Assembly (NCBI GenBank): GCA_015487015.1
Contig: WFQP01000033.1
Span: forward strand, 1-51,276
DNA: 51,276 bases
Direction of reading: 5' to 3'
DNA from: Thiomicrorhabdus sp.
GTDB taxonomy: Bacteria; Pseudomonadota; Gammaproteobacteria; Thiomicrospirales; Thiomicrospiraceae
The position numbers and the translations under genes were made by a program. Shown one piece after another: positions 278 through 48,672 of the stretch. The number at the start of each line of letters is the position of its first letter. Position 1 is the first letter of the stretch. The notes under the pieces were generated by a model. The model was not told where the DNA came from and searched no databases. It saw only the letters and a program-made list of their open reading frames with translations.

Positions 278-285
278 CCCCCCCC
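278..285 (-). repeat. G8 tract motif copy (AAGGGGGGGGAAAATATTTT)
   Basis: Poly-G plus A/T-rich 3' half, intergenic. Confidence 0.8.
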
Positions 286-304
286 TTATGATTCTCTAGG
301 AATG

Positions 305-1039
305 TTAATCAGTTTTCTTTTCAGGCTGCTCTACGTTATTAAAGGCTTCCGCCATTTTAAGCCCTGTTAAGCCATTGATGGTGCGCCATAAAAAGTAAAA
401 AATAGCCATCATCATAATCATGGAGGGAATGGCAATCATTGGGTAGCTTAATAGAGTCAGTTGGCCTAGTTCTTCATTAAATTCGGCACTGCCTGCTGGG
501 CTAACGACAATCCATGTGGCTAGAATATAGTTCATTACGGCGGAGAAGAAGAAGGTGCCCCCTAGTAAGTAGGTTCCCATAAGTAAGCGTGCTTCAAATT
601 TTTGGGTATTGTCTGACTCTTTTAATCTCTTTTCTATTTTTTCAACCTGCATAATTTTAGGGTTGTAGATTAAAGTTTTAATCAGAGGGTAGCGGGTTTT
701 GGTGGAAATAATGACCGCTAATCCAATAATACCCGGAATCGCTGCTTCTTTGATGGCGAGCCATTGTGTATCCAGTTCTAATAAACCTATTCCACCCGTA
801 AGCAGTACGCTGATTAAGCCAAGCAGAGCAATAAAGTTAAATTTACGAAACTTTACCAGCTCGTACATTCCCCACGCAATGGGAAATGCCAGTGCGGTAA
901 TTAACGCACCTGTGGCACCTAGGTCTTGCTCGCCACTGAGTTTCATGAGGATGACCGATGGGATTACGATGCTGACCAATAGGTCAACCATTGGACGGGG
1001 CTTGTGGGTGGGAATGGTGCTAGGTGATGTTTGATTCAT
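305..1039 (-). CDS. VC0807-like multi-pass membrane protein
   Basis: 244 aa, several hydrophobic helices, resembles the VC0807 family. Confidence 0.6.
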   Translation of the reverse strand: MNQTSPSTIPTHKPRPMVDLLVSIVIPSVILMKLSGEQDLGATGALITALAFPIAWGMYELVKFRKFNFIALLGLISVLLTGGIGLLELDTQWLAIKEAAIPGIIGLAVIISTKTRYPLIKTLIYNPKIMQVEKIEKRLKESDNTQKFEARLLMGTYLLGGTFFFSAVMNYILATWIVVSPAGSAEFNEELGQLTLLSYPMIAIPSMIMMMAIFYFLWRTINGLTGLKMAEAFNNVEQPEKKTD

Positions 1040-1063
1040 GTAACGGTCTCGTATGTTTTATTC

Positions 1064-1483: not shown

Positions 1484-1574
1484 TCCTGATAGTCTCTGTA
1501 AATAAGTATTTAATAAGCATTTAATTTTGGTAAAGGGAATTATAAAGCTTTTATAACGAAACAAAATAATTTTT

Positions 1575-1583
1575 CCCCCCCCC
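1575..1583 (-). repeat. G9 tract motif copy (ATAAGGGGGGGGGAAAAATTATT)
   Basis: Upstream of rhodanese lipoprotein start. Confidence 0.8.
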
Positions 1584-1668
1584 TTATCGGAATGTATTTG
1601 TAATCGTTTAAGGAGTTTATGAGTAAGTTGGCCTTTTGGCTCGTTATTTGTTGGAGCCAAAAGGTTTT

Positions 1669-3429: not shown

Positions 3430-3550
3430 GATGATTTCTCTTTCTTAGAGGTTAAATTGATATTTAGCCCAATAGTAAGGGCAATTTTAGCTGAATTCAA
3501 GTGTATTACGAGTGTTGTCACCCTTGCTTGAGACTGTGTTGCCAAATTTT

Positions 3551-3561
3551 CCCCCCCCCCC
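3551..3561 (-). repeat. G11 tract motif copy (AAGGGGGGGGGGGAAAATTTGGC)
   Basis: Intergenic between OmpA-like gene and mgtE. Confidence 0.8.
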
Positions 3562-3585
3562 TTTTTTTTATGTAAAGCCCCTTAT

Positions 3586-4953: not shown

Positions 4954-5007
4954 CTGTGTACAAGGGTTTAACGTTGGCTATATTGTAGCAGGAGATGGTA
5001 GGAAGTA

Positions 5008-5015
5008 GGGGGGGG
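5008..5015 (+). repeat. G8 tract motif copy (TAGGGGGGGGAGAATTTTTT)
   Basis: Intergenic, upstream of mgtE, next to hpf terminator-like hairpin. Confidence 0.8.
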
Positions 5016-5072
5016 AGAATTTTTTAATGGCATACATAGTTGTATGCATGCCATTTTGACTTTCAGAACTTG

Positions 5073-9263: not shown

Positions 9264-9908
9264 ATGGCGAGACTGATAATGCTACAAATAGGAACGTGTG
9301 GTTGGGAGCATGAAGGGTGGTTGGGGCATTTTTACCCAGATGACTTGCCTGAATCTTGGCGGTTAGATTACTTTAGCAATGAGTTTAATGTGGTGTTGGT
9401 GCCTCAGCAAGTATGGTTGTCTTGGTCACAAACAACGATAAAAGCGATTGTTGAAAGTGTGGATGATAATTTTGGTTTTTACTTGGCGTTTCAAAATGAG
9501 TTTGAGGGGGGGGTAAAAAATAAAAAAACAGTATTACAGCTCCAGTCGATTTTGTCTATTTTAGGAACGAGTGTTTTAGGATTTGTTGTTTGGAGTGAGC
9601 AGGCATTTACATTGTCTACTTTTTTGCAACGGCCTGTGACGCTTGTTTCAACTCAGCATCGTTTGTCTGGTTGGGCGTGGCTAAAGGAAGGCGTTTGGTT
9701 GTCGGGCAACCCTTTAGGGTTTGTTTCGGCATTGCCCAAAGAGGGTAAAGAACAGGCCAAGTTATTGACAGAGTTTGTTGAGAGTCTATCTAATCTAAAA
9801 TTAGAAGATTCTGATATAATTCCCGTGGCCTTTATTGTTGGCGGAGATTCAGTGGATATGCAGCAAGTGGCTAATTTGAAAACCATTGGTGAGTTATTGG
9901 GGTATTGA
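9264..9908 (+). CDS. Divergent DUF72 (YecE-like) protein
   Basis: N-terminus LQIGTCGWEHEGWLGHFYPDDLPESWRLDYFSNEFNVV; only 214 aa; alternative start at 9279. Confidence 0.6.
   Translation: MARLIMLQIGTCGWEHEGWLGHFYPDDLPESWRLDYFSNEFNVVLVPQQVWLSWSQTTIKAIVESVDDNFGFYLAFQNEFEGGVKNKKTVLQLQSILSILGTSVLGFVVWSEQAFTLSTFLQRPVTLVSTQHRLSGWAWLKEGVWLSGNPLGFVSALPKEGKEQAKLLTEFVESLSNLKLEDSDIIPVAFIVGGDSVDMQQVANLKTIGELLGY
9506..9513 (+). repeat. G8 tract motif copy (GAGGGGGGGGTAAAAAATAAAAA)
   Basis: Inside DUF72-like gene. Confidence 0.8.
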
Positions 9909-12732: not shown

Positions 12733-13020
12733 GTGGCTAATTTAGAGTGGTGTGAAAGCCGTTGCACAATAACATTGCCGAGCGATGTAACGCTTGAAGT
12801 ACTTTCTGATAAGCTTAATTTAAAAAAAGTGTTAGCGTATCCTGTAAAAGTGGTTGATTTTAGTGCGGTTCAGCAAGTGGACAGTGCTGTATTGGCCTTG
12901 TTGTTAGTTTGGTCTAAAAATTCCCCCCCCCCCATTCAAGTACTTAAACCACCTGCAGAATTATTAGGCCTAATGCGGCTTTATGATTTAGAAGAGGTTG
13001 TTCAGATTAAAGAATTATAA
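12733..13020 (+). CDS. mlaB: STAS-domain protein MlaB
   Basis: STAS-like 95 aa following mlaC; GTG start. Confidence 0.8.
   Translation: MANLEWCESRCTITLPSDVTLEVLSDKLNLKKVLAYPVKVVDFSAVQQVDSAVLALLLVWSKNSPPPIQVLKPPAELLGLMRLYDLEEVVQIKEL
12923..12933 (-). repeat. G11 tract motif copy (ATGGGGGGGGGGGAATTTTTAG)
   Basis: Inside mlaB. Confidence 0.8.
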
Positions 13021-19942: not shown

Positions 19943-21183
19943 TGTCTAATCAAACAAATGAATCATCTTCAGGAAAGTCATCGTTATTAGGTTGGTTTGA
20001 CGAACGCTATCCTGTTTCAAGCACGTGGAATAAGCACGTTGGTGAATACTATGCACCTAAAAACTTTAATTTTTGGTACTTTTTTGGCTCGTTAGCTTTG
20101 ATTGTACTGGTTAACCAAATTGTTACGGGTATTTGGTTGACCATGAGTTATCAGCCATCAAATGCAGAAGCCTTTAATTCGGTTGAGTACATTATGCGAG
20201 ATGTCGAATGGGGTTGGTTATTACGATACTTACATTCAACAGGAGCATCGGCCTTTTTTATTGTTGTTTATTTGCATATGATGCGTGCTTTGCTTTATGG
20301 ATCTTATAAAAAGCCAAGAGAACTCGTTTGGGTAATCGGTATGTTATTGTTCTTGGTATTAATGGGTGAAGCCTTTATGGGTTACTTGTTGCCTTGGGGA
20401 CAAATGTCTTTTTGGGGTGCTCAGGTTATCATCTCTTTATTTGGCGCCATACCTGTTATTGGGCCTGATTTAGCGTTATGGATTCGTGGTGACTTTGTAA
20501 TTTCAGAAGTAACATTAAACCGTTTCTTTGCTTTGCACGTTATTGCTCTGCCATTGGTGCTGGTTATTTTAGTCTTTATGCACTTGGTGGCTTTGCATCA
20601 TGTTGGATCTAATAACCCAGATGGCATTGAGATTAAAAAGCTCAAAGATAACAAAGGAATTCCTTTAGACGGTATTCGTTTCCACCCTTACTATTCGGTT
20701 AAAGATGCGATGGGTGCAGTGTTCTTCTTTATTTTGTTTGCATTGGTCTTATTCTATGCACCAGAAGGGGGGGGATATTTTATTGAAGCTCCTAACTTTG
20801 AACCAGCAAACCCACTTAAAACACCAGATCATATTGTTCCTGTTTGGTACTTTACGCCTTTCTACGCTATTTTAAGAGCGATACCAGATAAGTTCTTAGG
20901 GGTTGTTGCAATGGGTGCCGCAGTGGTTATTTTATTTGCACTGCCGTGGTTAGATCGTTGTAAGGTTAAATCGATTCGTTATCGTGGTAACTCTTATAAA
21001 GTGTTGTTAACCATATTGGTCATTAGTTTCTTTGTTTTAGGGTTTTTAGGAACACAGCCATCGACACCGCTTTATACAAAATTGGCGCAAATTTTTACGG
21101 CATTGTATTTTATGTTCTTCTTGGTGCTACCATTTACATCAGCAAATGAAAAAACCAAGCCTGTTCCAGAGAGGGTGACTTAA
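19942..21183 (+). CDS. petB: Cytochrome b
   Basis: LLRYLHSTGASAFFIVVYLHMMRALLYGSYK, GYLLPWGQMSFWGA. Confidence 0.98.
   Translation: MSNQTNESSSGKSSLLGWFDERYPVSSTWNKHVGEYYAPKNFNFWYFFGSLALIVLVNQIVTGIWLTMSYQPSNAEAFNSVEYIMRDVEWGWLLRYLHSTGASAFFIVVYLHMMRALLYGSYKKPRELVWVIGMLLFLVLMGEAFMGYLLPWGQMSFWGAQVIISLFGAIPVIGPDLALWIRGDFVISEVTLNRFFALHVIALPLVLVILVFMHLVALHHVGSNNPDGIEIKKLKDNKGIPLDGIRFHPYYSVKDAMGAVFFFILFALVLFYAPEGGGYFIEAPNFEPANPLKTPDHIVPVWYFTPFYAILRAIPDKFLGVVAMGAAVVILFALPWLDRCKVKSIRYRGNSYKVLLTILVISFFVLGFLGTQPSTPLYTKLAQIFTALYFMFFLVLPFTSANEKTKPVPERVT
20767..20774 (+). repeat. G8 tract motif copy (AAGGGGGGGGATATTTTATT)
   Basis: Inside petB. Confidence 0.75.
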
Positions 21184-21983: not shown

Positions 21984-23528
21984 ATGGATATAACGTGGGT
22001 AAATACTGTATTAGACTGGATGGCAATGCTCTTTATTCTGGTTGTTGGATTTATATTTCTTTTAATTGTTGTGTACTACTTTATTGACCGTTTTCAAACA
22101 GAACACGCTATTCGTCACAACTACCCCGTGATTGCGCGTTTTCGGTATCTGTTTGAATACTTAGGTACCTTTTTACGTCAATACATGTTTGCAGCCGACC
22201 AGGATGAACGTCCGTTTAACCGTGCACAAAGAAGTTGGGTATATCGAGCGGGTAAAAACTTATCAACCACCGAAGCATTTGGATCGACTCGAAATATTAG
22301 CTTTCCCGGTAAAATACTGTTTACTAGCTGTCCGTTTCCACTGCTCGAGCGTGATGCAGTTTCTTCCCCCCCCCTAGTGATTGGACCAAATTGTAAAACA
22401 CCTTTTAAAGCGACCTCTATTTTTAATATATCAGGAATGAGTTTTGGTGCATTGTCTAAGCCTGCGGTGTTAGCTTTAAGCAAGGGGGCTAAAAAATCTG
22501 GTTGCTGGATGAATACGGGAGAAGGCGGAATCTCTCCTTATCATTTGGAAGGGGGCGCAGATTTAGTGGCCCAAATTGGAACTGCTAAATATGGCTATCG
22601 TGATAAAAATGGTAATTTGAGTAATGAAAAATTGAGAGAAGCGGCCGCGATAGAGCAAGTTAGAATGTTCGAAATTAAACTCAGTCAAGGTGCCAAACCA
22701 GGAAAGGGTGGGATTTTACCTGCAGCGAAAATTACTAAAGAAATTGCTGAAATTAGAGGGATTCCTGTTGGCGAAAGTTCGATTAGTCCAAATCGACATG
22801 CGGACATTGCCTGTAATGATGATCTGTTGGAGATGATTACTCGTATACGAGAGGTAACAGGCAAGCCTGTGGGTTTTAAATTTGTAATGGGGTCACCCGA
22901 GTGGCTGGAGAGCCTTTGTATTCGAATTAATGAAGTGGGTAAAGAGACTGCGCCAGACTTTATTACCATTGATGGAGCTGAAGGCGGGACAGGATCTGCT
23001 CCTGTTGCATTGATGGATGATGTAGGGATTTCATTAAATGAGTCTCTTCCTTATGTGATTGATATTTTGACTAAATATGGTTTACGAGATCAGGTTCGAG
23101 TGATCGCTTCGGGTAAATTAACCAATCCAACGATGGTGGCTTGGGCATTGGCCGTGGGTACTGATTTTATTGCCTCTGCACGTGGGTTTATGTTCTCGCT
23201 AGGGTGTATTCAGTCTATGCACTGCCATAAAGATACGTGCCCAACAGGCATTGCCACACATAATGTACGTTTGCAAAGTGGTTTATCGCCTAAGATTAAA
23301 TCTCAACGTGTGATGAACTATCACCATAACCTGATTCATGAAGTTGAGCTGATTGCCCACTCTTGTGGGGTCACAGAACCACGTGGTTTAACTCGCCAGC
23401 ATGTTCGTATTGTGCAAAATAGCAGTCGCTCTCAACCATTTTCAGAGATATTTCCAGATGAAACGCCCATTGAATTTCAAGGAATTTCTGTTGAGGTGAC
23501 TTCGGCCAGTACATCTGAGCGTAAATAA
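21984..23528 (+). CDS. FMN-binding glutamate synthase family protein with N-terminal TM helix
   Basis: SGMSFGALSKPAVLALSKGAKKSGCWMNTGEGG, ITIDGAEGGTGSAP. Confidence 0.92.
   Translation: MDITWVNTVLDWMAMLFILVVGFIFLLIVVYYFIDRFQTEHAIRHNYPVIARFRYLFEYLGTFLRQYMFAADQDERPFNRAQRSWVYRAGKNLSTTEAFGSTRNISFPGKILFTSCPFPLLERDAVSSPPLVIGPNCKTPFKATSIFNISGMSFGALSKPAVLALSKGAKKSGCWMNTGEGGISPYHLEGGADLVAQIGTAKYGYRDKNGNLSNEKLREAAAIEQVRMFEIKLSQGAKPGKGGILPAAKITKEIAEIRGIPVGESSISPNRHADIACNDDLLEMITRIREVTGKPVGFKFVMGSPEWLESLCIRINEVGKETAPDFITIDGAEGGTGSAPVALMDDVGISLNESLPYVIDILTKYGLRDQVRVIASGKLTNPTMVAWALAVGTDFIASARGFMFSLGCIQSMHCHKDTCPTGIATHNVRLQSGLSPKIKSQRVMNYHHNLIHEVELIAHSCGVTEPRGLTRQHVRIVQNSSRSQPFSEIFPDETPIEFQGISVEVTSASTSERK
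22366..22374 (-). repeat. G9 tract motif copy (TAGGGGGGGGGAAGAAAC)
   Basis: Inside glutamate synthase-like gene. Confidence 0.75.
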
Positions 23529-26987: not shown

Positions 26988-27073
26988 GTTGAACCTTTAC
27001 TGTATTTTATTGTGTTTGTTGGGGGGAAAGTAGGCCTGTTATAAAGACCTACTTTGAATGGGTTTTATTACAA

Positions 27074-27081
27074 GGGGGGGG
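27074..27081 (+). repeat. G8 tract motif copy (AAGGGGGGGGAGAAAATTTATTTT)
   Basis: Intergenic between doxX-like and IMPase genes. Confidence 0.8.
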
Positions 27082-27185
27082 AGAAAATTTATTTTGAAAA
27101 GTGTGTTATTAAAGGATTTTTCAGAGGTAAGCTGAGTAGCGATTATTATATATTGACTACTCAAAGAGTTGTTACGTTATAAGTA

Positions 27186-30452: not shown

Positions 30453-31844
30453 ATGTTTGATAATTTATCGGATCGTTTGGCGAAAACCTTTAAAAGTTTA
30501 AAGGGGCAGGGTCGTTTAACGGAATCGAATATTAAAGATGCCTTAAGAGATGTTCGCAGAGCATTGTTAGAAGCTGATGTGGCTCTGCCTGTAGTGAAAA
30601 GCTTTATTGCCAAAGTAGAAGCGCGTGCAATAGGGCAAGAAGTTTCGACTAGTTTAAACCCCGGTCAAGCCTTTATTAAAATTGTACGTGAACAATTAGC
30701 CGACGTGATGGGCGCGGAAGCAGAGGGACTTAATTTTAATGTTGAGCCACCCGCCGTTATTATGGTTGCGGGTTTGCAGGGGGCAGGTAAGACGACCTCT
30801 GTGGCCAAGCTGGCTAAATTGCTTAAAGAGCGCGATAAGAAAAAAGTGATGGTGGTTTCAGCCGATGTTTACCGCCCAGCCGCGATTAAGCAGTTAGAAA
30901 CGTTAGCGACTCAAGTAGATGTTTTATTTTATCCCTCTTCGGCCGATCAAGATCCCGTTGAAATTGCGCGCAGTGCACACGCTGAAGCGAAAAAACAGTT
31001 TGCCGATGTATTGATTTTAGATACGGCAGGTCGTTTGCATGTGGATGCAGAGATGATGGAAGAGATTCAACACTTGCATCAAAGTATTAATCCGTGCGAA
31101 ACCTTATTTGTTGTCGATTCGATGACGGGACAGGATGCCGCCAATACCGCCAAAGCCTTTAATGATGCGTTGCCCCTCACAGGGGTCATTTTAACGAAAA
31201 CGGACGGAGATGCACGAGGGGGCGCGGCCTTGTCGATTCGTGAGATTACTGGCAAGCCAATTAAGTTTATTGGGGCGGGTGAAAAAGTCGATGCGCTTGA
31301 GCCTTTCCATCCCGATCGTATGGCTGGTCGAATTTTGGGTATGGGCGATGTACTGAGTTTAATTGAAGCCGCAGAAACCAAAATTGATCAAAAAAAGGCC
31401 GCTAAGTTTGCTGCTAAAATTAAAAAATCAGGGGCGTTTGATTTAGAGGATTTTTTAGAGCAACTTCAGCAGATTCAAAATATGGGCGGTGTCGGTGGCT
31501 TGATGGGGAAACTGCCGGGCATGAGCAAAATTAAGGATCAGGTCAGTGGCGATGTGGCTGAAAAAGAGTTTAAACGTTTAGAAGCAATTATTCAGTCAAT
31601 GACTCGTAAAGAACGTATGTTTCCTGCAGTAATTAAAGGCTCTCGTAAACGCCGAATTGCAATGGGATCAGGAACAACTGTTCAAGATGTGAATCGACTG
31701 TTAAAGCAATTTACCCAAATGCAAAAAATGATGAAAAAAGTATCTAAGGGGGGCATGAAAAATATGATGCGTGGTTTAGCTGGCAAATTACCCCCTGGAA
31801 TGGGTGGCATGGGGGGGGGAGGAATGCCTCCGGGAATGAGATAG
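30453..31844 (+). CDS. ffh: Signal recognition particle protein Ffh
   Basis: GLQGAGKTTSVAKLAKLL, DTAGRLHVDAEMM, Met-rich M domain. Confidence 0.98.
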   Translation: MFDNLSDRLAKTFKSLKGQGRLTESNIKDALRDVRRALLEADVALPVVKSFIAKVEARAIGQEVSTSLNPGQAFIKIVREQLADVMGAEAEGLNFNVEPPAVIMVAGLQGAGKTTSVAKLAKLLKERDKKKVMVVSADVYRPAAIKQLETLATQVDVLFYPSSADQDPVEIARSAHAEAKKQFADVLILDTAGRLHVDAEMMEEIQHLHQSINPCETLFVVDSMTGQDAANTAKAFNDALPLTGVILTKTDGDARGGAALSIREITGKPIKFIGAGEKVDALEPFHPDRMAGRILGMGDVLSLIEAAETKIDQKKAAKFAAKIKKSGAFDLEDFLEQLQQIQNMGGVGGLMGKLPGMSKIKDQVSGDVAEKEFKRLEAIIQSMTRKERMFPAVIKGSRKRRIAMGSGTTVQDVNRLLKQFTQMQKMMKKVSKGGMKNMMRGLAGKLPPGMGGMGGGGMPPGMR

Positions 31845-34146: not shown

Positions 34147-35052
34147 ATGTCAGACTCCCGTGCACTTCACCCCCAGATTCAAACCTTTTTAAACTTTTTA
34201 GTGGTGTCAGAAGGGTTAAGTCAAAATACCGTTTCGGCTTATCAAAAAGATTTACAACTTTTTCAAAAATGGTTAATTGAAGAGAGCATTGAGCCTTTTG
34301 CTACGGTGACTCGAACCCACATTGAAACCTTTATGCTATCGTTACAACAAAGTGGCCGTAAAGAGCGCAGTAATGCGCGTCTACTGTCTGCATTAAAGCG
34401 CTTTTATCAATGGGGGGGGGTAAATAATCTGTTTGATTCGGATCCTACGGTACTGTTTAAAGCGTCTAAAGTGCCTAAGTCGATTCCAACGGTTATTTCA
34501 GAACAACAGGTTGAAGACTTATTAGCAGCACCGGATATCATGACGACCTTAGGGCTTCGAGATCGCGCCATTTTAGAGCTTATGTATGCCAGTGGTTTAC
34601 GAGTATCCGAGGTGGTTGAGTTGCCTTTTGAACAAATTAATTTGTCGGCGGGTTTGGTTCAAGTGATGGGTAAAGGGAGTAAAGAGCGTATTGTACCGAT
34701 TGGAGAAATTGCGATTGAGTGGATTGAGCGTTATTTACAAGATGCGCGTCCAATTTTGACTAAAAATCGCTGGATTGCAACGTTGTTTATTTCTCGAATT
34801 GGTCGTCCAATGACGCGTCAAACACTTTGGCATCGTGTTAAAAATTTAGCGTTTGATGCGGGTATTAAAGGTAAATTGTCACCGCATACTTTGCGCCATG
34901 CCTTTGCTACACATTTGATTAATCACGGTGCTGATTTGAGAACGGTACAGTTATTGTTAGGGCACAGTGATCTGTCGACTACACAAATTTATACACACGT
35001 TGCAAAAGAACGTTTACATCAGTTACATCAGCAACATCATCCTAGAGGGTGA
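34147..35052 (+). CDS. xerD: Tyrosine recombinase XerD
   Basis: HTLRHAFATHLINHGADLRTVQLLLGHSDLSTTQIYTHVAKERL. Confidence 0.93.
   Translation: MSDSRALHPQIQTFLNFLVVSEGLSQNTVSAYQKDLQLFQKWLIEESIEPFATVTRTHIETFMLSLQQSGRKERSNARLLSALKRFYQWGGVNNLFDSDPTVLFKASKVPKSIPTVISEQQVEDLLAAPDIMTTLGLRDRAILELMYASGLRVSEVVELPFEQINLSAGLVQVMGKGSKERIVPIGEIAIEWIERYLQDARPILTKNRWIATLFISRIGRPMTRQTLWHRVKNLAFDAGIKGKLSPHTLRHAFATHLINHGADLRTVQLLLGHSDLSTTQIYTHVAKERLHQLHQQHHPRG
34412..34420 (+). repeat. G9 tract motif copy (ATGGGGGGGGGTAAATAAT)
   Basis: Inside xerD. Confidence 0.8.
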
Positions 35053-35081: not shown

Positions 35082-36554
35082 ATGCATAATGAAGAGAAAG
35101 TACTGGTCAATGTAACTCCTAATGAAACAAGGGTTGCGTGGGTTGAAAATGGCGTTTTGCAAGAGCTTTGGATTGAGCGAGCCAATAAAAGAGGCTTGGT
35201 TGGCAATATTTATATGGGCAAAGTAGAGCGGGTTTTGCCCGGTATGCAGGCGGCTTTTGTTGGCATTGGGCTTGAAAAAGCGGCTTTTTTACATGTATCG
35301 GATGTGTGTCAGCGAAAAAAAGTGCTGAATGATTCGGAGGAGTGTGATGATATCGTTCGCTTACTGTACCCTGGACAAAAAGTGATGGTGCAGGTGATGA
35401 AGGACCCATTGGGAGCAAAGGGTGCGCGCATTACTATGGAGTTAAGTTTGCCCTCTCGAATGTTGGTCTACATGCCGATAGAGAAGAGTCTTGGTGTGTC
35501 GCAACGGATTGAAAGCCCAGAAGAGCGAGATCGATTACGTGAACTGGTAAAAAGCATTCCTGAATTTCAAAACTCAGAAGGTGGCTTTATTGTAAGAACG
35601 GTTGCTGAAGGTATGGATTTTCATGAAATTCGTGCGGATATGATTTATTTACAGCGTTTATGGAAAGGGATTCAAGAGAGCGTGAAAGTGGCTCAAAAAC
35701 CCACGCTTATTTATGAAGACCTACCGCTTTATTTACGTATTTTACGAGACATTCCAAGTGCTCGAATTGAGAAAATTAGGGTAGATTCGGTTGAAACCTT
35801 AAAGAAAATGGAACACTTTATTGAAATGTATGTCATGGAGTTGAGCAACCGTTTGGGGCTTTATCAAGGTGAGCGTCCCATTTTTGACCTATACAATATT
35901 GAAGAAGAGATTCAAACAGCTTTACATAAACGAGTGAATTTAAAGTCGGGGGGGTATTTAATTATTGATCAAACCGAAGCCTTAACCACCATGGATGTCA
36001 ATACGGGTGGTTTTGTGGGTCATAAAAATTTAGAAGAGACTATTTTTAAAACAAACCTTGAGGCCACGCAAGCGATTGCTCGGCAGTTACGATTGCGAAA
36101 CTTAGGGGGGATTATTATTCTTGATTTTATTGATATGGAGCTCAAAAAGCATAAAAAGCATGTGTTGGCTGCGTTAGAAAAAGAGCTGGCAAAAGATCGA
36201 GTAAAAACATCCATCAGCAGTATCTCTAATTTAGGGCTGGTGGAGATGACGCGTAAACGAACACGTGATAGTTTAGAGCGAACCTTATGTGAACCTTGTG
36301 TTGTGTGCAGTGGAAGAGGCATGGTTAAAACGGCTGAAACCGTTGCGTTTGAGATTTTTAGAGATATTACGCGAATGGCTCGTTCTTTTGAAGGCGAAAA
36401 GTATCGAGTTATTGCATCGGAGGCCGTTGTGGCGCGAATTTTAGATGAAGAGTCAGACAGTGTGGCTGAGTTAGAAGAGTTCTTAAAGAAAAGCATTCGC
36501 TTTCAAGCAGAGAGCTCTTATACAGCAGAGCAGTTTGATGTCGTGATGATGTGA
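35082..36554 (+). CDS. rng: Ribonuclease G
   Basis: LVNVTPNETRVAWVENG, LKSGGYLIIDQTEALTTMDVNTGGFVG; ORF can also start at 35052. Confidence 0.95.
   Translation: MHNEEKVLVNVTPNETRVAWVENGVLQELWIERANKRGLVGNIYMGKVERVLPGMQAAFVGIGLEKAAFLHVSDVCQRKKVLNDSEECDDIVRLLYPGQKVMVQVMKDPLGAKGARITMELSLPSRMLVYMPIEKSLGVSQRIESPEERDRLRELVKSIPEFQNSEGGFIVRTVAEGMDFHEIRADMIYLQRLWKGIQESVKVAQKPTLIYEDLPLYLRILRDIPSARIEKIRVDSVETLKKMEHFIEMYVMELSNRLGLYQGERPIFDLYNIEEEIQTALHKRVNLKSGGYLIIDQTEALTTMDVNTGGFVGHKNLEETIFKTNLEATQAIARQLRLRNLGGIIILDFIDMELKKHKKHVLAALEKELAKDRVKTSISSISNLGLVEMTRKRTRDSLERTLCEPCVVCSGRGMVKTAETVAFEIFRDITRMARSFEGEKYRVIASEAVVARILDEESDSVAELEEFLKKSIRFQAESSYTAEQFDVVMM
35948..35954 (+). repeat. G7 tract motif copy (TCGGGGGGGTATTTAATTATT)
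   Basis: Inside rng. Confidence 0.65.
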
Positions 36555-36577: not shown

Positions 36578-39500
36578 GTGATTATTAAGCATACCCATCA
36601 CTCATTACAGATTATTTTTGCTGTATTAATTGGTTATTTATTGATAACGAAACTATTTATTTCGTGGGTTCAGTATGCGCCAGACTCTTTTATCGAAAGT
36701 GTCGAGTGGGCAACGGACAGTGATATCTCATTCGATAAGATTGAGATACAACAAGGTTGGTTGGGATTTCAGTTCCAGACTCAAAATCTTACTGTAAAAG
36801 ATGCTAAGTTTGATTTGAGTATTCAGCAGTTAGATATGGATATAAACCTGTTTTCTATGTTGATACCCAAATTGAAATATGGAGAGTACTTAATTGTAAA
36901 ACAGGCTGTATATCAGCAAAAAGAGGCCATAAAAACGGTTCATGATTTTGAAAAAGGGCTATCAGCCGACCACATTGAAAAATTAACGGAAATTAATTTA
37001 GACATCAGTCAGCTTTGGCAGCGGGTAAAGGTGTCGGATGTTGTATTTAAAGCACTGTTTGACCCTGATTTAACGGTTCACCTTTATGACTACCAATCCC
37101 TTTCGGGGTCTCTGCTGAACGTGGTTTCTGAGTTTGGTGTAGCGTATAAAAAAAGCCTAAATTTTGAACGGTTTGGCTTTAAATCCAGTTTTGAAACGAA
37201 TATTTTGGGGAAGGTGATAGAGGGTGAATTGAACCTATTCTCTCTTTATCCATTAAGGGTTGAGGCTTTAGCACAGCTGTGGCCTTTGGCATTGAAAGAG
37301 AAGTTACCAAAAGGTGAGTTACTATTTGATTTGCAGGCACAGATTTTTCAGTCAAAAATATCTCAGTTAACGCTTAATCTAAATGCGCAATCACTTAAGT
37401 GGGCACAAAAAAATTCAACGCTGCCTCAGCACTTAGGGGTGGAGCTTATTTGGGAGTCAACGTTACAAAATAGCCAATCCAACTTTATGGATTGGACATT
37501 TAGGCTATCAAAAATACAGCTAGAGAATCAATACATCCAAAATATTTCTCCAATAGAGCTGGGATTTGAAGAGAATCAAATTTTAACATTTCGTTCGGAT
37601 TATTTTGATATTGAACCGCTTAAGGTCATTGTTCAGTCATTAGTGACCAATTCACATATTTCAGCACTGTTTGATAAAACCTCTGGGTTAGCAATTGAAA
37701 GCCTACAGGGGCAGTTTAATTGGAAATCCTTTCAGTTACCCAAACTTGAGATGACCATTAAGAAATTAATGTTGCCTGCCACCGATTATCCAGGGATTGC
37801 ACTGCATGATTTAACGTTATTAAAAAATAAAAATAAATTTATTTTAACCACCGATCAACCGATGGTTTTATCAGGTTTGAACCTTCCTAAGAGGGGGGTA
37901 AAAATTGAATTGCCCAATAATATTTATCTAAAACACTCCATCTCTGAAGGGGCTTGGGTCTTGACCCCTCTACACTTTACGATTGATAAGATGCCGGTTA
38001 CCTTAACCGCAACAGGAAGCACAGAGGGGAATGTTGATGCTAACTTGTTAATTGAAGTGGGTACGATGCAAACCTTAAAGCAGTATTTACCCTATGAACT
38101 GTTTTCGCCTGAACTTCAGGCTTGGTTAAACATGGCCTTAGTCGAAGGTAAAAATATTAATGGGCGGGTACAGTTAAAAGGGGCGTTAAAAGATTTTCCA
38201 TTTCAGGATGGCTCAGGAACTTTTAAAGTGAAGGCCTCGGTAGAAAATGCATTTATAAAATTTGATTCGGATTGGCCTATGCTGGAGGACTTTACTGGCC
38301 AAATTGAATTTACCCCCTATCAACTGAAAGTCACCTCTCCTCGTATTTATGTGGGTGAGGGGGCTTATGCTCAAGAGGTTGAGGTGGTGATCGACCATCT
38401 AGACCAAGAGAACATTGCATTGGTGTTTAAGGGCCATGTACAAACGCAGTTGAATCGAGGCATCTCATATTTAACGAGCTCTCCTTTGGCGGGCTTATTA
38501 GGCTTGGAAGGGTTTATAGAGAATACCAAGTTTGGAGGGAACATCGATGTGACGCTCGACCAAGTTTGGATTCCGCTTTCGGGCTACTCTAATCAAGCCG
38601 AAACGGTTTCAGGTCAGGTTACCTTTAAAAATGCGACGATGACGCTTTTTGATTCGATTCCGATTGAACAAATAAAAGGTACTTTGGCCTTTACTGAAAA
38701 AGGGGTAACGGCTAATAAACTGACTGCAAAGGCTTTTTCTCATAACAGCCGCTTCTCAGTCAAGACGCTACCCAAAAATGAGACGATTTTTATACAGGGT
38801 GAAGGTCGGTTGTTATCCGCTAAAAATCCTTTTTTTGACTCATCGATTCCTTGGAATTTGCGGGTTGATATTCCGTTGAATTCGAAAAACAGTTCTGATG
38901 TGGACATTCAAGTAGAGGTTCCTTTTGCGAAGGTAAACAGTCTTTTACCTGCGCCTTTTAATGCCCGTGCGCTTAAGGACAAAGCTCTAAAAGTAAACAT
39001 TGATGTCGCAAAAAAGTCGTTGTCTATGAATGTGGATTTGCCTGAGTTACTGGCTGCAAAAGGGTACTGGAAAGAGATAAAGTCGCAGTATCAAGTGCAG
39101 CAAGTCGAAGTGTTATTGGGAGAAGAGGCTAAGCGTGGGTTTGCATCAGATAAACAACTCCACTCTTATATTCGAGGTGATTTAGGGGGGGTAAATTTAG
39201 ATGATTGGATGAACACAGTTCCTAATTTAGGGCTGGATAGTATTTGGGATAAAGGGTCTTCAAGCTTAGATTGGATGCCCTCATGGATTACTGTGGACTC
39301 TTTAATGTTTCGAGAGCATGCGTATCCAAATGTTCGTATGGAATGGTTAAAGCGTAATTTAAAAACGGTATTGCAAATCAAAAGTTCAGATGTATTGGCT
39401 AATGTTGTGATTAAGCCTCATTCACCGATTGAGATGAGTGTTGAACGTTTAAGGCTTCATGCACTTGATACGACGGTAGCTGAAAGCAAAAAAAATCAAA

Positions 39501-41036: not shown

Positions 41037-41902
41037 GATTTTTTAGACCTTTTTTTAGGTTGGCATTGCTGGCTGCATTTTATAGTTAAACGTTGCTTGG
41101 TTTCGAGGGCATAGGCGGTTAATTTCCCCCCCCATAAACAGCCCGTATCGGTTGAGTGAACTTGGTAGGCATCAATCTCACCCAGTGTCGACCAGTGCCC
41201 AAAAAAGATTTCATACGCTTTATTTTTTCGATTTGAAAATACAAACCAAGGTTCATAAGGAAAGGCTTCTTGGCGCTTTTGATCACTTTCAGGTGCCGAC
41301 TTTAATGAAAATTCGAGAGCTCCATTGGCATCACAATAGCGCATTCTTGTGAATGCATTCAAAATATAGCGTGCTCTATCCCAACCTGAAAGTGTCTCTT
41401 GCCACTCATTGGGTTGATTACCAAACAGATGGTTGACCAGTGCGTTTTTCCAGTCCTCACTTTGTAAAAGGGTCTCGACCTCTTTGGCATACCCCTGAGC
41501 TGCCTTAATGCTCCATTGAGGTGGAATGCCTGCATGTACCATGACGGTATTGTAAACAGGGTGCTTGACCATTAAGGGTTGTTTTCTTAGCCAGTCAATG
41601 AGTTCTTCGGCTTCTTCGGATTGCAATATCTCTTGGAGAGTATCGGACTTTGAGAGAAATTTGTCAAAGCCTGCGTAAGCGGCTAATAGATGTAGGTCAT
41701 GATTGCCTAAGACGATTTTGGCTTGACCCTGTTGTTCGAGTTGTTTCACAAAGTGTAAGCACTCTAATGATTTGGGACCTCGATTGACAATGTCCCCAGC
41801 AAACCACAAAAAATCCTGCTTGGGTTGATAGTCAATGTGTTTTAACAGGGCTTGAAGTTCATCGTAACAGCCTTGTAAATCGCCAATCACATAGGTAGTC
41901 AT
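41033..41902 (-). CDS. apaH: Symmetrical bis(5'-nucleosyl)-tetraphosphatase ApaH
   Basis: YVIGDLQGCYDELQALL, FAGDIVNRGP, VLGNHDLHLLA. Confidence 0.97.
   Translation of the reverse strand: MTTYVIGDLQGCYDELQALLKHIDYQPKQDFLWFAGDIVNRGPKSLECLHFVKQLEQQGQAKIVLGNHDLHLLAAYAGFDKFLSKSDTLQEILQSEEAEELIDWLRKQPLMVKHPVYNTVMVHAGIPPQWSIKAAQGYAKEVETLLQSEDWKNALVNHLFGNQPNEWQETLSGWDRARYILNAFTRMRYCDANGALEFSLKSAPESDQKRQEAFPYEPWFVFSNRKNKAYEIFFGHWSTLGEIDAYQVHSTDTGCLWGGKLTAYALETKQRLTIKCSQQCQPKKRSKKS
41126..41133 (-). repeat. G8 tract motif copy (ATGGGGGGGGAAATTAACC)
   Basis: Inside apaH. Confidence 0.75.
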
Positions 41903-41930: not shown

Positions 41931-42782
41931 TTAAGAAGAGAATTTTCCGTGTTGAAAATAGAGGTTTGCCAGCTTCACAAAGCCTTCAACAGGAATGGTT
42001 TCTGCGCGGGTAGCTGGCTCAAGATCACAAGCTTCAATTTGTTCGACACTTAACCAACCTTTGAGGTTATTGCGAAGTGTTTTACGTTTTTGGCTAAACG
42101 ATTGCCTTACGATATCACGAAAGGCTTTGTCATCGTCGGCCACAAAAGGGAGCGTTGCGTGTGGAATTAAACGCACAATCGCAGACTCTACTTTAGGGGG
42201 GGGGGTAAAATTTTCTGGGCCAACGGTAAACAGCGATTCAGTTTGGCAGCTGTATTGCAACATCACACTTAAACGTCCGTAGGCTTTAATACCGGGCTGT
42301 GCTGTAATGCGATCCACCACCTCTTTTTGCAGCATAAAATGCATATCTTGAATACAGTGTGCGTAGGTCAGTAGGTGGAACATGAGTGGGCTTGAGATAT
42401 TGTAAGGTAGGTTACCTACGATTCTCAACGACTGTTTGTCGTTAGACTCGGTCTTTGAGAGCAGTGTACCGTAGTCAAATTTGAGTGCATCGGTGTGGTG
42501 TAGATTAAAAGCCGGTTTGGTTGCAAACTGAATTTTTAGAGGCGCAATTAGATCGTTATCAATCTCGATGATGTCTAGTTTTTTAACACGCTCAATTAGA
42601 GGGCGAGTTAAGGCGGCTTCACCCGGGCCAATCTCGACCATATGATCGTTTTCTTGGGGACGAATTGAGGCCACAATTTGATCAATGATTCGACCGTTGT
42701 TTAAAAAGTTTTGTCCAAACTGTTTTTTATGTTTATGAGTGCTTGGACGTCCTGAAGCATGTTTTGCTGTATATTTTGCCAT
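41931..42782 (-). CDS. ksgA: 16S rRNA dimethyladenosine transferase KsgA/RsmA
   Basis: KKQFGQNFLNN, VEIGPGEAALT, NLPYNISSPL, FTPPPKVESAIVRL. Confidence 0.97.
   Translation of the reverse strand: MAKYTAKHASGRPSTHKHKKQFGQNFLNNGRIIDQIVASIRPQENDHMVEIGPGEAALTRPLIERVKKLDIIEIDNDLIAPLKIQFATKPAFNLHHTDALKFDYGTLLSKTESNDKQSLRIVGNLPYNISSPLMFHLLTYAHCIQDMHFMLQKEVVDRITAQPGIKAYGRLSVMLQYSCQTESLFTVGPENFTPPPKVESAIVRLIPHATLPFVADDDKAFRDIVRQSFSQKRKTLRNNLKGWLSVEQIEACDLEPATRAETIPVEGFVKLANLYFQHGKFSS
42196..42205 (+). repeat. G10 tract motif copy (TAGGGGGGGGGGTAAAATTTTCTG)
   Basis: Inside ksgA (antisense to gene). Confidence 0.8.
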
Positions 42783-42793: not shown

Positions 42794-43822
42794 CTAAGAG
42801 CTAGGAGGGGAGTAAGGGGGGGGTTGCGTCATTTCTTGTGCCACGCTTAGGGCGTATCGAAAACTTTGTGCATCGGCTTGACCCGTGCCAGCAAGCGATA
42901 AGGCGGTGCCATGATCGACTGAGGTGCGAACAAAAGGCAACCCTAATGTAACATTAACGGCATTACCAAAGCCCATGTGTTTTAAAACGGGTAAACCTTG
43001 ATCGTGATACATCGCCAGCACGGCATCGGCTCGCTTTAAATAGTTGGGGGTAAAAAGTGTGTCGGCAGGAAGAGGGCCTTCTAACGTCATGTTTGGTTTG
43101 AGTGTTTCCAATACTGGGCAAATTACATCAATCTCCTCTCGCCCCATGTGACCATCTTCTCCCGCATGGGGGTTTAAGCCTGCAACCAATATGGTTGGGT
43201 CTTTAATGCCAAACTGGTGTGTTAAGGCGTGATGCGTAATGTGCAAAACGTCGGTTAACAGGGTTGGTGTAATGGCTTTCGGCACATCCAATAGTGGCAG
43301 GTGTGTGGTCACCAGTGCCACTCTTAAGCCGGGGGTCGCCAGCATCATGACCACTTGTTGTGTGTGACTCTCCTCAGCCAACAGTTCGGTATGCCCTGTA
43401 AAAGGTAGGCCTGATTCGTTAATAATACCTTTATGAATTGGGCCAGTAATCATGGCAGAAAATTCATGGTTTAAACAGCCTTGAATGGCGGTTTTTAACA
43501 TGGTAATTACATAGTCCGCATTCTCTACACTGAGTTGACCTGCTTGAACGGGCACAGCTGTGTCAATGTGCAGTAAGGTAATTTGACCTTTTTGGCTTGG
43601 CTCGGGTGGTTGATTGGCTTGATACGTTTTAAAAGAGATCGATAATCCGAGCATCTTGGCGCGTTGAGTTAACAGGGCTTGGTCGGCGATAACCACCAGT
43701 TCCATCGGCCAATCGGATTGTGCCAGTTGTAAAACAAGGTCTGGACCAATTCCAGCGGGTTCACCCGATGTGATAACAAATCGTTGAATGATTACTGGTT
43801 GAGGAGGTGTGTGGTGTGTCAT
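42794..43822 (-). CDS. pdxA: 4-hydroxythreonine-4-phosphate dehydrogenase PdxA
   Basis: [49 protein letters not shown]. Confidence 0.97.
42816..42823 (+). repeat. G8 tract (AAGGGGGGGGTTGCGTC), weak 3' half
   Basis: Inside pdxA 3' end. Confidence 0.55.
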
Positions 43823-43833
43823 ATTAAGCCCGT

Positions 43834-45186: not shown

Positions 45187-47568
45187 TTAAAATTTTAATT
45201 TTTTAGCTAAGTCTTTCTTAAAGGCTTGATTTGAGCTGCTTAAGCCCTTTAACTCAAATTGCAGTTTGAATTCGTCATTATACAAGCCATTATCAAGTTG
45301 TGTACGCTCTGTCATAAATTCAATGGCCCAGCAACAGGCGTCGTACCGTAACCCAAGGTTACCTTGGTAGAGTTGTTCATTATACAGGTCATAATTGAGA
45401 TAAACGCCAACTTGCCAGTTTTGCGCTAATTGGGTATAGCCCCCCATGCTTAAAGTCTCTTTTTGAGCGTCGGTGTCATTATTAGATAGGGCATAGTTAG
45501 CCAGTAGTGTGCCATATTGTGGTGAACGGTATTTGAGTCGGCTATTGGCATGCAATAAATTGTGTTTTTGTTGAGTAAATTGCAGGGTGGATGAAACATT
45601 GAGCGCGCCGACATTGAGTCCCAATTTTAAAAAGATATCAGAGCTTGAGTTGGTTTGAGGGTTGGTGCTGGTTAAGCCAACACGGCGGTCTTCAAAATAA
45701 ACAATTTGTCCTACGCCCGCATCCATCACTTGGCGACCATTTGAGTTTAAAAATCGAGTGGTTAAGGCAGTGGTGACTTGATTGGCATCGCCAATACGAT
45801 CAGAGCCACTAAAGCGATTAATCGCAAATAAGTTACTGAACGCAAGGCTTCGATTACCAGTATCAAACAAGGGAATATTGTCTTGGTTTTGATAAGGGGT
45901 GTATAGATATTGCATTTCAGGTTCGAGGGTTTGTGTATATGTTTTCCCAAAAAAAGTGATGGGGCGTTCAAAAATTAAGCCACCTTTTAAGGCAAATTGT
46001 GGCACAAACAGACTGTGTGAGGTTGCACCGGTTGTGTTGCCGGCATTGTCCTGCATTTGATACATCGTTTGATTGCCGACCACTGTGGCTTTAACAAAAC
46101 CATAAGATTGGTTGAGCTGATATTCAATCGAGGGGTTGATGTTAAAGCGTAACGCTTCAGGCTTGGTAGTAGATGAAATAGGAAGTACAAAGTCGGTCAT
46201 ACTGCTTTGAATATTAAAGCTGAAATCATCGACTTGATGACGATAGCGTAATCCTACTTCAGGGCGTTTCTCATAGTTTAATGGTGCATTTCTCAGGCGC
46301 AGATAGCTGGATGCTTGCACATAAGTTTGTAAGTTGTCTTTTTGATAATTGAGTTTAAGGTTTCTGGGGATCTGTGTGACCGTTTTATATTGAGACTGTA
46401 CGGGAATATCAGCGTAAAAGTTTTCATCGGAGGCTTCGTGCCACACAATGCTGCTGGTAAGTCCTTCTCCCCAGTTTTGTCTGGCATTGAGGCTGGCACG
46501 CCAGCGATGGGTGATTTTTTGATCATAAGTGACATTGCCTGCAGAATCGGCCGTACTGAGCCCCTCTTTTGAGGTGAGCTGATCTTGAATGGAGGATAGA
46601 TCCAGTTTGAGTGAGTGTGTTCGGTCGAGGTAACGAAACTCATTATCCAAAATTACGCCGCGTTTATCGATCGGAATCACCGTTAAGGTGCTGTCCATAT
46701 TGGGTGCAAGATTGAAAAAATAGGGAATTTTAATAAACTGCAAAAGGTCTTTTTGAGTGACGGACTTAATGCTCCCCAGTGAGGCAAATAAAAAGCCACT
46801 CGCTCGGTTAGCTAAACTGTATGCAAAATAGGGGGTGTACAGAACAGGGATATCTTTAATTAACAGTCGGGCATTACGAGCCACCACCTGCTCAGTCTGT
46901 TGATTGATTTCAACCTCATCAAATTTCAGCTGCCAAGTGAGCGACTGTTCAGGCGATTGTGTGCAGGCTGTAAGCGTGGCTTGATTCAGCGTGGTTTTAG
47001 AAGACTGTTGCTCTAATAAAATTTGACTGGCTTGACCATACATACGGCTGGGCAGAATTTGATAGCGAGCCTCTTTAAGTTTTGAGGTCTGTTCTATTTC
47101 ACTCATATCCACTTGGTTGGCCATGAGCAATATATCGGGTTGATGAATTTCAACATGCCCTTTAAATTGAGCCGTTTGTTGGGCTTTATCAAATAGCATT
47201 TGATCACTGAGTACCACCAAATTGGGCTGGGTAAATTTAGCCTCCCCTTTAAATAGGTAGCGATTAGGCGAGGGTTGCTCCAGTTGGTTGGCTTCAAGCT
47301 GTTTAACGGATGGATTTAAGTTAACTATTACCGCTTTGTTTTTTGAGAAGGTTTGTGGCGAGAGCTGTAAAGGGGCAATGAGAGGCGGTGCACAAGGGGG
47401 GGAAGCAATTTGAGGGGGCGGATTGGTCTTCATCGCCATGCTTTGCAGCGAGAATCCGGTTAATAACACTGCACCCACAGTTTGAAAACACCATGAGAGG
47501 GGGGGGGAGAAATTTAAAAAGAGTGATTTAAATTGTAGCGCAACGTTTGACATCAAGAGGATAATCAT
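45187..47568 (-). CDS. lptD: LPS assembly protein LptD
   Basis: OstA-like N domain plus long beta-barrel; upstream of surA. Confidence 0.95.
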   Translation of the reverse strand: MIILLMSNVALQFKSLFLNFSPPLSWCFQTVGAVLLTGFSLQSMAMKTNPPPQIASPPCAPPLIAPLQLSPQTFSKNKAVIVNLNPSVKQLEANQLEQPSPNRYLFKGEAKFTQPNLVVLSDQMLFDKAQQTAQFKGHVEIHQPDILLMANQVDMSEIEQTSKLKEARYQILPSRMYGQASQILLEQQSSKTTLNQATLTACTQSPEQSLTWQLKFDEVEINQQTEQVVARNARLLIKDIPVLYTPYFAYSLANRASGFLFASLGSIKSVTQKDLLQFIKIPYFFNLAPNMDSTLTVIPIDKRGVILDNEFRYLDRTHSLKLDLSSIQDQLTSKEGLSTADSAGNVTYDQKITHRWRASLNARQNWGEGLTSSIVWHEASDENFYADIPVQSQYKTVTQIPRNLKLNYQKDNLQTYVQASSYLRLRNAPLNYEKRPEVGLRYRHQVDDFSFNIQSSMTDFVLPISSTTKPEALRFNINPSIEYQLNQSYGFVKATVVGNQTMYQMQDNAGNTTGATSHSLFVPQFALKGGLIFERPITFFGKTYTQTLEPEMQYLYTPYQNQDNIPLFDTGNRSLAFSNLFAINRFSGSDRIGDANQVTTALTTRFLNSNGRQVMDAGVGQIVYFEDRRVGLTSTNPQTNSSSDIFLKLGLNVGALNVSSTLQFTQQKHNLLHANSRLKYRSPQYGTLLANYALSNNDTDAQKETLSMGGYTQLAQNWQVGVYLNYDLYNEQLYQGNLGLRYDACCWAIEFMTERTQLDNGLYNDEFKLQFELKGLSSSNQAFKKDLAKKLKF
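47396..47402 (+). repeat. G7 tract motif copy (AAGGGGGGGAAGCAATTTG)
   Basis: Inside lptD 5' region. Confidence 0.65.
47499..47507 (+). repeat. G9 tract motif copy (GAGGGGGGGGGAGAAATTTAAA)
   Basis: Inside lptD 5' region. Confidence 0.8.
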
Positions 47569-47610
47569 TAATTATTCATGGATTGCTTATTTTAACCGAG
47601 TATTCTTGAA

Positions 47611-48672
47611 ATGACTGAAAGATTTGAAACGATGTTGAGCTGGGTCTCTCAGCTGCCGATGTTTGCCCAACAAAAAATTTCCCCCCCCTTGCCAGCCTCC
47701 AATGATGCCAGCTTTCGACGCTACTTTCGGATTCAAACGACCCTCGAAGAGAGGCGAGAAGAAGGGGGGGGAGAAAAATATTGTGATCAAACATCGTATA
47801 TTATTATGGATGCCCCCGTTGAGTTTGAAGATTGTCGTCCGTTTATTCGTATTTCGCAACAGTTGGCGAAGATGGGATTACAGGTGCCTGAAGTGTTGGC
47901 TCAAAACCTTGAACAAGGGTTTTTATTATTAACCGATTTGGGGGATGTAACCTATTTATCCGCACTGGCTACGGCCACAGAACAGGAAGCGGATGCGCTG
48001 TATCAACAGGCGTTAACCGCTTTGGTAACTTTGCAAAGCAAGGGGCAAAAGCTGGCGAACAACTTACCAGAGTACGATGCACCGTTATTGGAGACAGAGA
48101 TGAACCTGTTTTCAGACTGGTTATTGGGATCGCACTTAAATCTCTCGTTAAATAAGATTGAAAATCAGCAGTGGCAATCGGTTAAAACACATTTACAGCA
48201 CTCGGCCTTGGCACAACCTCAGGTGTATGTGCATCGTGATTACCACAGTCGTAATTTAATGGTGAATACCAGCAGTTCCCCCGGTATTTTAGATTTTCAA
48301 GACGCAGTTCAAGGCCCTTTAACCTACGATGCAGTCTCGCTGTTGCGAGACTGTTATATTGCTTGGCCAGTCGAGCAGGTGACCGAATGGCAACGCGCTT
48401 ATTTTTTACAGTTGTGTACTCAAAACCTGATACGAAAAGATGAGTGGATCGCGTTTCAAAAATCGATGGATTTAATGGGTATTCAACGTCACTTAAAAGC
48501 CAGTGGTATTTTTGCACGCTTAAACCACCGAGATGGTAAAGAGGGGTATTTAAACGACATTCCGCTTACCCTTGATTACATCGTACAAGTGGGAGCGAAC
48601 TATTCTGACATGACGGATTTAGTGCGGCTAATTGAAAACAGAGTGCTGCCCAGCTTGGAAAACCTAAAATGA
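47611..48672 (+). CDS. amgK: Aminoglycoside phosphotransferase-family sugar kinase (AmgK-like)
   Basis: NDASFRRYFRIQ, YVHRDYHSRNLMV, ILDFQDAVQGPLTYD; followed by murU. Confidence 0.9.
   Translation: MTERFETMLSWVSQLPMFAQQKISPPLPASNDASFRRYFRIQTTLEERREEGGGEKYCDQTSYIIMDAPVEFEDCRPFIRISQQLAKMGLQVPEVLAQNLEQGFLLLTDLGDVTYLSALATATEQEADALYQQALTALVTLQSKGQKLANNLPEYDAPLLETEMNLFSDWLLGSHLNLSLNKIENQQWQSVKTHLQHSALAQPQVYVHRDYHSRNLMVNTSSSPGILDFQDAVQGPLTYDAVSLLRDCYIAWPVEQVTEWQRAYFLQLCTQNLIRKDEWIAFQKSMDLMGIQRHLKASGIFARLNHRDGKEGYLNDIPLTLDYIVQVGANYSDMTDLVRLIENRVLPSLENLK
47681..47688 (-). repeat. G8 tract motif copy (CAAGGGGGGGGAAATTTTTTG)
   Basis: Inside amgK 5' region. Confidence 0.8.
47764..47771 (+). repeat. 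G8 tract motif copy (AAGGGGGGGGAGAAAAATATT)
   Basis: Inside amgK, inverted relative to 47681. Confidence 0.8.

Follow-up and report, generated by a model that had tools for sequence, protein, structure and literature searches.

A G-run motif with an A/T tail in one Thiomicrorhabdus clade, a probable dialect of a family-wide site resembling uptake sequences

The motif A-G8-A-R-A-A-W-T-T-T is dispersed over the genomes of a single clade of six sulfur-oxidising species. With somewhat better than even confidence, it is read here as the recognition site of this clade and as a dialect of a family-wide system that uses the palindrome CAGGCCTG or CCGGCCGG in other members, most likely as an uptake sequence of the USS type. 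The starting point was a window of 51,276 nucleotides (the whole stretch of DNA analysed) from a Thiomicrorhabdus-like MAG of 1.98 Mb. A sequence-only reading of this window had proposed a genome-wide, actively maintained site, and genome-wide counts, clade restriction, synonymous-site conservation and the decay of the excess with mismatch load back this proposal. Among the four candidate functions named in that reading, a DNA-uptake-like sequence gives the best fit.

The poly-G observation is confirmed. The window contains 18 G/C runs of at least 8, with lengths of 8-11, every one of them where it had been reported, and three runs of exactly 7 (35948, 39185 and 47396), in line with the claim of at least three. 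Fewer than one run of 8 or more had been expected by a rough estimate, and 300 dinucleotide-preserving shuffles yield a mean of 0.91 (maximum 6). The run-plus-tail motif occurs six times in the window, compared to 0.003 in dinucleotide-preserving shuffles. The source genome carries about 530 G runs of 8 or more, and the density of G8 is one per 3.7 kb. Further analyses drew on samples of 422 kb (G000), 472 kb (G028) and 808 kb (G027), on about 56-60 kb from each of 13 more congeners and on 33-47 kb from each of the other four clade members. In the genes of the 422-kb sample, 91 runs of at least 8 compare with 11.3 (maximum 22) under a synonymous-codon shuffle. The excess holds in both types of shuffle and in six congeners, and such strong genome-wide over-representation of one oligomer is a mark of uptake sequences.

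Copies in the window lie between and within genes. G8 AAAATATT (270..286, minus strand) and G8 AGAAAATT (27073..27089, plus) are intergenic, G8 AGAATTTT (5007..5023, plus) lies between ORFs and G11 AAAATTTG (3543..3562, minus) just outside the mgtE ORF (3586-4953, minus), while G9 AAAAATTA (1567..1584, minus) is found close to the beginning of an ORF with a rhodanese domain (1064-1660, minus). A Glu_synthase-domain ORF harbours G9 AAGAAACT (22358..22375, minus) and a metallophosphatase ORF G8 AAATTAAC (41118..41134, minus). The lptD ORF includes G7 AAGCAATT (47395..47410, plus) and G9 AGAAATTT (47498..47515, plus). Two G8 copies in divergent orientation are 75 bp apart, namely AAATTTTT (47673..47689, minus), which is kept in the G028 orthologue, and AGAAAAAT (47763..47779, plus).

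Several copies can be followed into relatives. The cytochrome b ORF copy G8 ATATTTTA (20766..20782, plus) is identical in the G029 orthologue, and G027 has a G9 run. The run and tail of the ksgA copy G10 TAAAATTT (42195..42213, plus) are the same in G012, G001 and G028 (73-76% overall identity), and G027 has GGTGGAGGTGTAAAG instead. G11 AATTTTTA (12915..12934, minus) corresponds to G8AGAATTTTT in the G028 orthologue, and G8 TAAAAATT in a RadA-like ATPase ORF (24627..24643, plus) to runs of 7-8 in G001, G029 and G028 and to GGCGGGG in G027. A copy in a XerC/D-type integrase ORF, G9 TAAATAAT (34411..34428, plus), is a G9 run in G017, G012 and G001, interrupted in G028 and absent from G027. G7 TAAATTTA in YhdP (39184..39199, plus) is shared with no relative but G017, and the G027 and G028 orthologues of ORF 9264-9908 lack the run of G8 TAAAAAAT (9505..9521, plus). 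Runs with poor tails include a G8 run in pdxA (TTGCGTCA; 42815..42831, plus) and a G9 run in ffh (31810..31827, plus). The latter is a weak member of the set and falls in an indel-prone repeat where the C terminus is rich in Gly and Met.

A logo built from 301 sites in the six genomes gives the consensus A-Gn-A-R-A-A-W-T-T-T. Flank conservation ends beyond about 18 bp, on which ground a longer mobile repeat was rejected. Within the window, A/T makes up 89% of the eight bases 3' of runs of at least 8, compared to 60% after G5 runs. The A/T block ascribed to nearly all runs is thus evident in this share and in the logo, with poor tails at 31811, 42816 and 47396. The additional claim that C never follows a run is true of the window's runs of at least 8 but fails in the sample, where C follows 3% of the runs of exactly 8 Gs and 30% of those of exactly 7. 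Run lengths peak at 8: the 422-kb sample has 53 runs of length 7, 75 of length 8 and 39 of length 9. With mismatch loads from 0 to 5, observed and expected counts are 4/0, 28/0, 78/0.8, 138/6.3, 232/51 and 503/320, and an excess that falls with mismatch load is the pattern described for uptake sequences (Bakkali 2007; PMC1939737). Cores with one interior non-G followed by the tail are enriched about 16-fold (16 vs 1.0 and 23 vs 1.3 expected), compared to 1 vs 1.0 in G027. Slippage in a homopolymer does not account for this excess of interrupted cores beside the tail.

Slippage that lengthens G runs beside A tracts, as might happen in a lineage deficient in mismatch repair, would nevertheless account for run lengths varying from 7 to 12, for the A/T neighbours and for the position of sites in indel-prone protein segments, where an alignment gap occurs at 24-26% of sites compared to 3% of random windows. 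Orthologue alignments reveal, however, that the G runs in genes derive mostly from in-frame substitution. For the same Gly-Gly pair of the RNase E/G ORF, relatives use other codons (GGCGGT, GGAGGC), so the G7 run TATTTAAT (35947..35962, plus) arose by substitution. Of 23 coding sites conserved in the four nearer relatives, 18 have runs of identical length, and the indel-driven length variation between relatives that typifies phase-variable G tracts is not the pattern at coding sites. Together with the enriched interrupted cores, the length peak at 8 and the presence of MutS in all six clade members, this makes a mutator or slippage origin highly improbable; it was rejected, and the suggested mutational expansion of G runs is contradicted. 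Conservation at orthologous sites, a check proposed at the outset, is apparent from in-run GGG codons, 66 of 91 of which are retained as GGG compared to 429 of 1026 elsewhere (p=2e-8). The copies in genes occupy variable protein segments: relative to G027, 25 of 53 in-run Gly residues are conserved, compared to 408 of 475 elsewhere.

Intergenic DNA holds 29-31% of the copies in 9-13% of the bases, an approximately threefold enrichment, and motif density is higher between convergent genes. A transcription terminator or another RNA-level element would be in keeping with this density, with several close inverted pairs (L043, L046, L050, L053) and with the clustering of the G027 palindromes at gene 3' ends. 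About 70% of the copies, however, lie inside genes on either strand, and no Rfam match was found in the window; a terminator is highly improbable. Close inverted pairs number 8 compared to 6.3 expected, and none of the eight is tandem. Hundreds of copies are spread over the sampled contigs with Poisson-like spacing (CV 1.0). A polar replication or recombination site such as Chi or KOPS would fit the richness in G, the frequency of roughly one per 4 kb and the position of about 60% of pooled runs of at least 8 on the skew-leading strand. With 89% of background G6 runs on the leading strand, however, composition would predict more polarity than the long runs show, and motif copies divide 34/19 (leading/lagging, by a GC-skew proxy) in G000 and 22/30 in G028. 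The strong leading-strand polarity of Chi or KOPS is lacking, and uptake sequences, too, show no general replication polarity; the polar candidate was rejected as highly improbable, and the earlier suggestion of a replication or repair site, taken as polar, is at odds with the same counts.

The motif is confined to one clade. Whole-genome counts of G8 runs are 279-599 in six congeners and 0-16 in the others, with one exception of 36. The run-plus-tail motif occurs 72-146 times in six of 32 congeners and is absent from the other 26; a reversed-motif control gives 0-9 hits. None of the 31 remaining genomes of the family has more than 5 copies of it, and none of 365 further genomes from the class has more than two. 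The six motif-bearing species form one clade (UFBoot 89). Among viral contigs, only three have an exact motif match, one in each.

Many relatives that lack the poly-G motif carry the palindrome CAGGCCTG (CCGGCCGG in one of them) in 236-1173 copies, compared to 3-24 in the six poly-G species. To our knowledge, these palindromic cores are unlike known DUS and USS cores. Their 8-bp core is followed by A/R and then TTT at the same offset as in the poly-G tail. The T tract at +5 to +7 reaches 49/65/54% at exact G8 sites, 60/62/55% in G027, 64/64/64% in G008 and 48/65/50% in G023, and the tail registers of the dialects fit best at shift 0 (column-permutation p=0.001). The palindrome tail is also seen at coding sites and is missing from control xAGGCCTx sites. 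With its tail and offset shared in this way, the poly-G motif looks like a dialect of a family-wide motif, and the dialects would then form one system. At ten CAGGCCTG sites in aligned G027 coding DNA, no G6+ run is present at the G000 orthologue, and there is thus no sign of in-place conversion; functional replacement at the same positions was rejected on this count (0/10).

The palindrome might instead be a HIP-like site kept by DNA methylation and repair (Elhai 2015), with an unrelated G-run motif that arose on the loss of that system. CAGGCCTG is indeed palindromic, highly iterated and centred on GGCC, and cyanobacterial HIP sites go together with methyltransferases (PMC4390886). Two unrelated elements would hardly share a tail in the same register, and the G-run motif, judged by the logo consensus G8-ARAAWTTT, is no palindrome; this explanation is improbable.

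For the uptake reading, the candidate machinery is represented by ComEC, which passes the cut-off in five of six clade members, and by ComEA in three. G012, G001 and G029 gave no ComEA, and G029 no full ComEC either; these are incomplete MAGs. Both genes also occur in G003 and G024, whose 60-kb samples contain no motif, and the genes therefore do not track the motif. A GspH/FimT search gave no match in the clade and identified no receptor, a prepilin regex had no match in the 422-kb sample, and the literature searched holds no uptake or transformation results for these organisms. Every site consists of an 8-bp GC core, an A-rich and then a T-rich tract, the latter at +5 to +7. In the proposed mechanism, a type IV pilus or competence receptor would bind the core, and the A/T tract may help bending or melting. 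DNA of the own species would be favoured in uptake, and transformation with tagged DNA could both spread the motif and hold it in place.

The main rival to uptake is a chromosome-organisation protein site. The motif might be bound by an abundant protein of chromosome organisation, the nucleoid or repair, whose DNA-binding domain would have changed together with the core in the poly-G clade. Such a protein could explain hundreds of dispersed copies with weak or no polarity and Poisson-like spacing, the long A/T tail, coding conservation and intergenic enrichment. A wholesale swap of hundreds of sites would, however, be hard if the bound protein were essential, whereas biased uptake could drive the rewriting of sites one at a time, and copies written into proteins at variable positions also speak against it. 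Binding by such a protein is the less probable reading, and DNA uptake machinery is the reader of the site that we infer.

The recent literature consulted here names genomic uptake sequences in two families only, Pasteurellaceae and Neisseriaceae, and a third case in free-living autotrophs would allow tests of independent origin, spread and dialect switching. The chances are about equal for and against a third uptake-sequence system, of independent origin, in a family of free-living sulfur oxidisers. It would have an 8-bp GC core with an A/T tail and three or more core dialects, and a single lineage would have moved from hundreds of palindromic CAGGCCTG sites to hundreds of pure G8 sites with tail and register kept. 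Such a switch of core with an unchanged tail would serve as a natural experiment in how receptor and site evolve together, and comparison between clades could frame a receptor search. Even if uptake machinery is not the reader, a family mark with interchangeable core and fixed register appears undescribed in the literature searched.

Among the traits described for USS and DUS are a core joined to an A/T tract, dialects that differ by clade and a preference for permissive locations (PMC12616744; PMC3630211). The USS of Pasteurellaceae resembles the present motif in its short GC core with downstream A/T tracts, in a copy number of hundreds or more with both orientations present, in its excess in intergenic DNA, in copies that lie in variable protein segments, in decay with mismatch load and in clade-wise dialects. 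Its core is AAGTGCGGT/ACAAGCGGT rather than eight Gs or the relatives' palindrome; here, one A/T tract directly follows the core with no clear second tract, copies are fewer and the classical USS is denser than one G8 per 3.7 kb. The DUS of Neisseriaceae is likewise a genome-wide tag with dialects that follow phylogeny and with occasional inverted pairs, but it is unrelated in sequence, continuous up to about 13 nt and without an A/T tract, and its receptor ComP is known. HIP1 (GCGATCGC) of cyanobacteria is, as the relatives' CAGGCCTG, a highly iterated GC-rich octamer palindrome, whereas the window's motif is not palindromic and both motifs here have an A/T tail. Chi and KOPS share with the motif that they are short, G-rich and genome-wide oligomers, from which the present sites differ by weak or absent strand polarity and by their A/T tail.

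All poly-G runs listed in the sequence-only reading were found at their positions in the window. Encoded proteins and nearest records place it in a Thiomicrorhabdus-like gammaproteobacterium. This stretch (1-51276) holds 18 G/C runs of at least 8; over 300 dinucleotide-preserving shuffles the mean was 0.91 and the maximum 6. A run with its tail, the A/T block 3' of the G run, occurs 6 times, compared to 0.003 in the shuffles. In the genes of a 422-kb sample of the same genome (G000, a MAG of 1.98 Mb in 144 contigs), 91 runs of at least 8 were observed against 11 after synonymous-codon shuffles. The whole-genome count is 532 distinct G8 runs. A and T run lengths drop steadily and G/C runs show a second peak at 8. 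The GC skew of the window is strong (+0.16 overall), so that background G5-G6 runs fall heavily on one strand.

A logo of 301 runs of at least 7 from six genomes gave the consensus A, G7-12, A, A/G, A, A, A/T, T, T, T, with signal absent from the flanks beyond the tail. Scored against AGGGGGGGGARAAWTTT, sites with 0-5 mismatches numbered 4, 28, 78, 138, 232 and 503, compared to 0, 0, 0.8, 6.3, 51 and 320 in shuffled sequence. Cores with one interior non-G were enriched 16-18-fold with a good tail and only 1.2-1.4-fold with a poor one. Given this mismatch decay and tail-dependent enrichment of interrupted cores, the motif behaves as a recognition site, not a homopolymer. Its copies are intergenic in 29-31% of cases (bases, 9-13%) and spaced in a Poisson-like manner, with none of 8 close pairs in tandem. 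Leading/lagging counts are 34/19 in G000 and 22/30 in the clade member G028; background G6 runs in G000 are 89% leading.

The strict motif has 72-146 matches in each of 6 of 32 congeners (reversed pattern, 0-9) and none in the other 26. Among 31 other family genomes, G066 has 5 and one more has 1; no more than 2 occur in any of 365 further genomes of the class. In a seven-protein tree the six poly-G species form a single clade (UFBoot 89), and the closest genomes that lack the motif are G027 and G007. When the pattern is reversed but left uncomplemented (TTTWAAA, then G7), it matches 27 times in G238, from another gammaproteobacterial family.

At 43 of 45 coding sites, the aligned G027 sequence, mostly ungapped, has no G run longer than 4. 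In ksgA, G10TAAAATT occurs in G000, G012, G001 and G028 and GGTGGAGGTGTAAAGTT in G027; in RNase E/G, GGGGGGG occurs in G000 only and relatives use other Gly codons. Within the clade, GGG is kept as GGG at 66/91 in-run positions versus 429/1026 elsewhere (p=2e-8). In G027, outside the clade, glycine is kept at 25/53 in-run positions versus 408/475 elsewhere. Since in-run glycine is often missing from G027, it was into variable protein segments that the motif was written. Of 23 conserved coding sites in the four nearer relatives, 18 have an unchanged run length, and MutS is present in all six poly-G species.

Many relatives outside the clade carry palindromic cores. A word scan of G027 found 305 copies of CAGGCCTGG (9 expected). 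In 60-kb samples of other congeners, the dialect, or core variant, was ACCAGGCCTGGT in G007, G009, G010, G015, G016, G022 and G030, AGCAGGCCTGCT in G008 (L181-L183), AACAGGCCTGTT in G005 (L173-L175) and ACCGGCCGGT in G023 (L153-L155); no comparable word was found in those of G003 and G024. Whole-genome counts put the highly iterated palindrome CAGGCCTG at 236-1173 copies in each of fifteen congeners, at 409-1128 in many genomes from the family's other genera and at only 3-24 in the six poly-G species (control word, 0-36). In G027 (L074-L114) it is 48% intergenic (12-mer ACCAGGCCTGGT, 64%) and almost never lies between divergent genes. The five G066 matches, in another genus, occupy three places beside only 4 CAGGCCTG copies and may reflect contamination or a second gain. 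In G006, 36 G8 runs lack the tail motif and occur together with CAGGCCTG in 236 copies, which may point to contamination or to an intermediate state. Among other repeats, the related words AGGAAGCTCTGAATAAG / AGGAACCTCTGA occur in about 20 copies in G028 (L064-L072, L115-L134) and may form a small dispersed repeat. A long CRISPR-like word with CTTAGCTGCC recurs about 97 times within 60 kb of G020 (L167-L169), and G016 (L170-L172) has repeats with CAAAGGTCTC and AGCTAGCTATTC.

The palindrome flanks carry A/R and then a T tract at +5 to +7 past the 8-bp core, as in the poly-G tail. T at +5/+6/+7 reaches 60/62/55% in G027, 64/64/64 in G008, 48/65/50 in G023 and 49/65/54 after exact G8. The best tail correlation falls at shift 0 for G7, G8, G008, G023 and G027 and at shift -1 for G9 (exact G8, column-permutation p=0.001). 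Coding sites have the tail, and xAGGCCTx control sites lack it. We infer a single system, with the palindromes and the poly-G motif as its dialects. No earlier report of these words in these genera was found in the literature searched; subscription papers lay mostly outside it, so this does not prove novelty.

DNA uptake is the likeliest function of the site, with a chromosome-organising protein as the main rival. Under the uptake reading, a pilus receptor would take up motif-bearing DNA and the uptake bias would spread the motif. ComEC is present in five and ComEA in three of the six poly-G species, and both also in congeners without a detected motif. The motif's features match those of uptake sequences (PMC12616744, PMC3630211, PMC1939737): a core with an A/T tract, dialects that follow clades, an excess that decays with mismatches, polarity that is weak or absent, and permissive positions.
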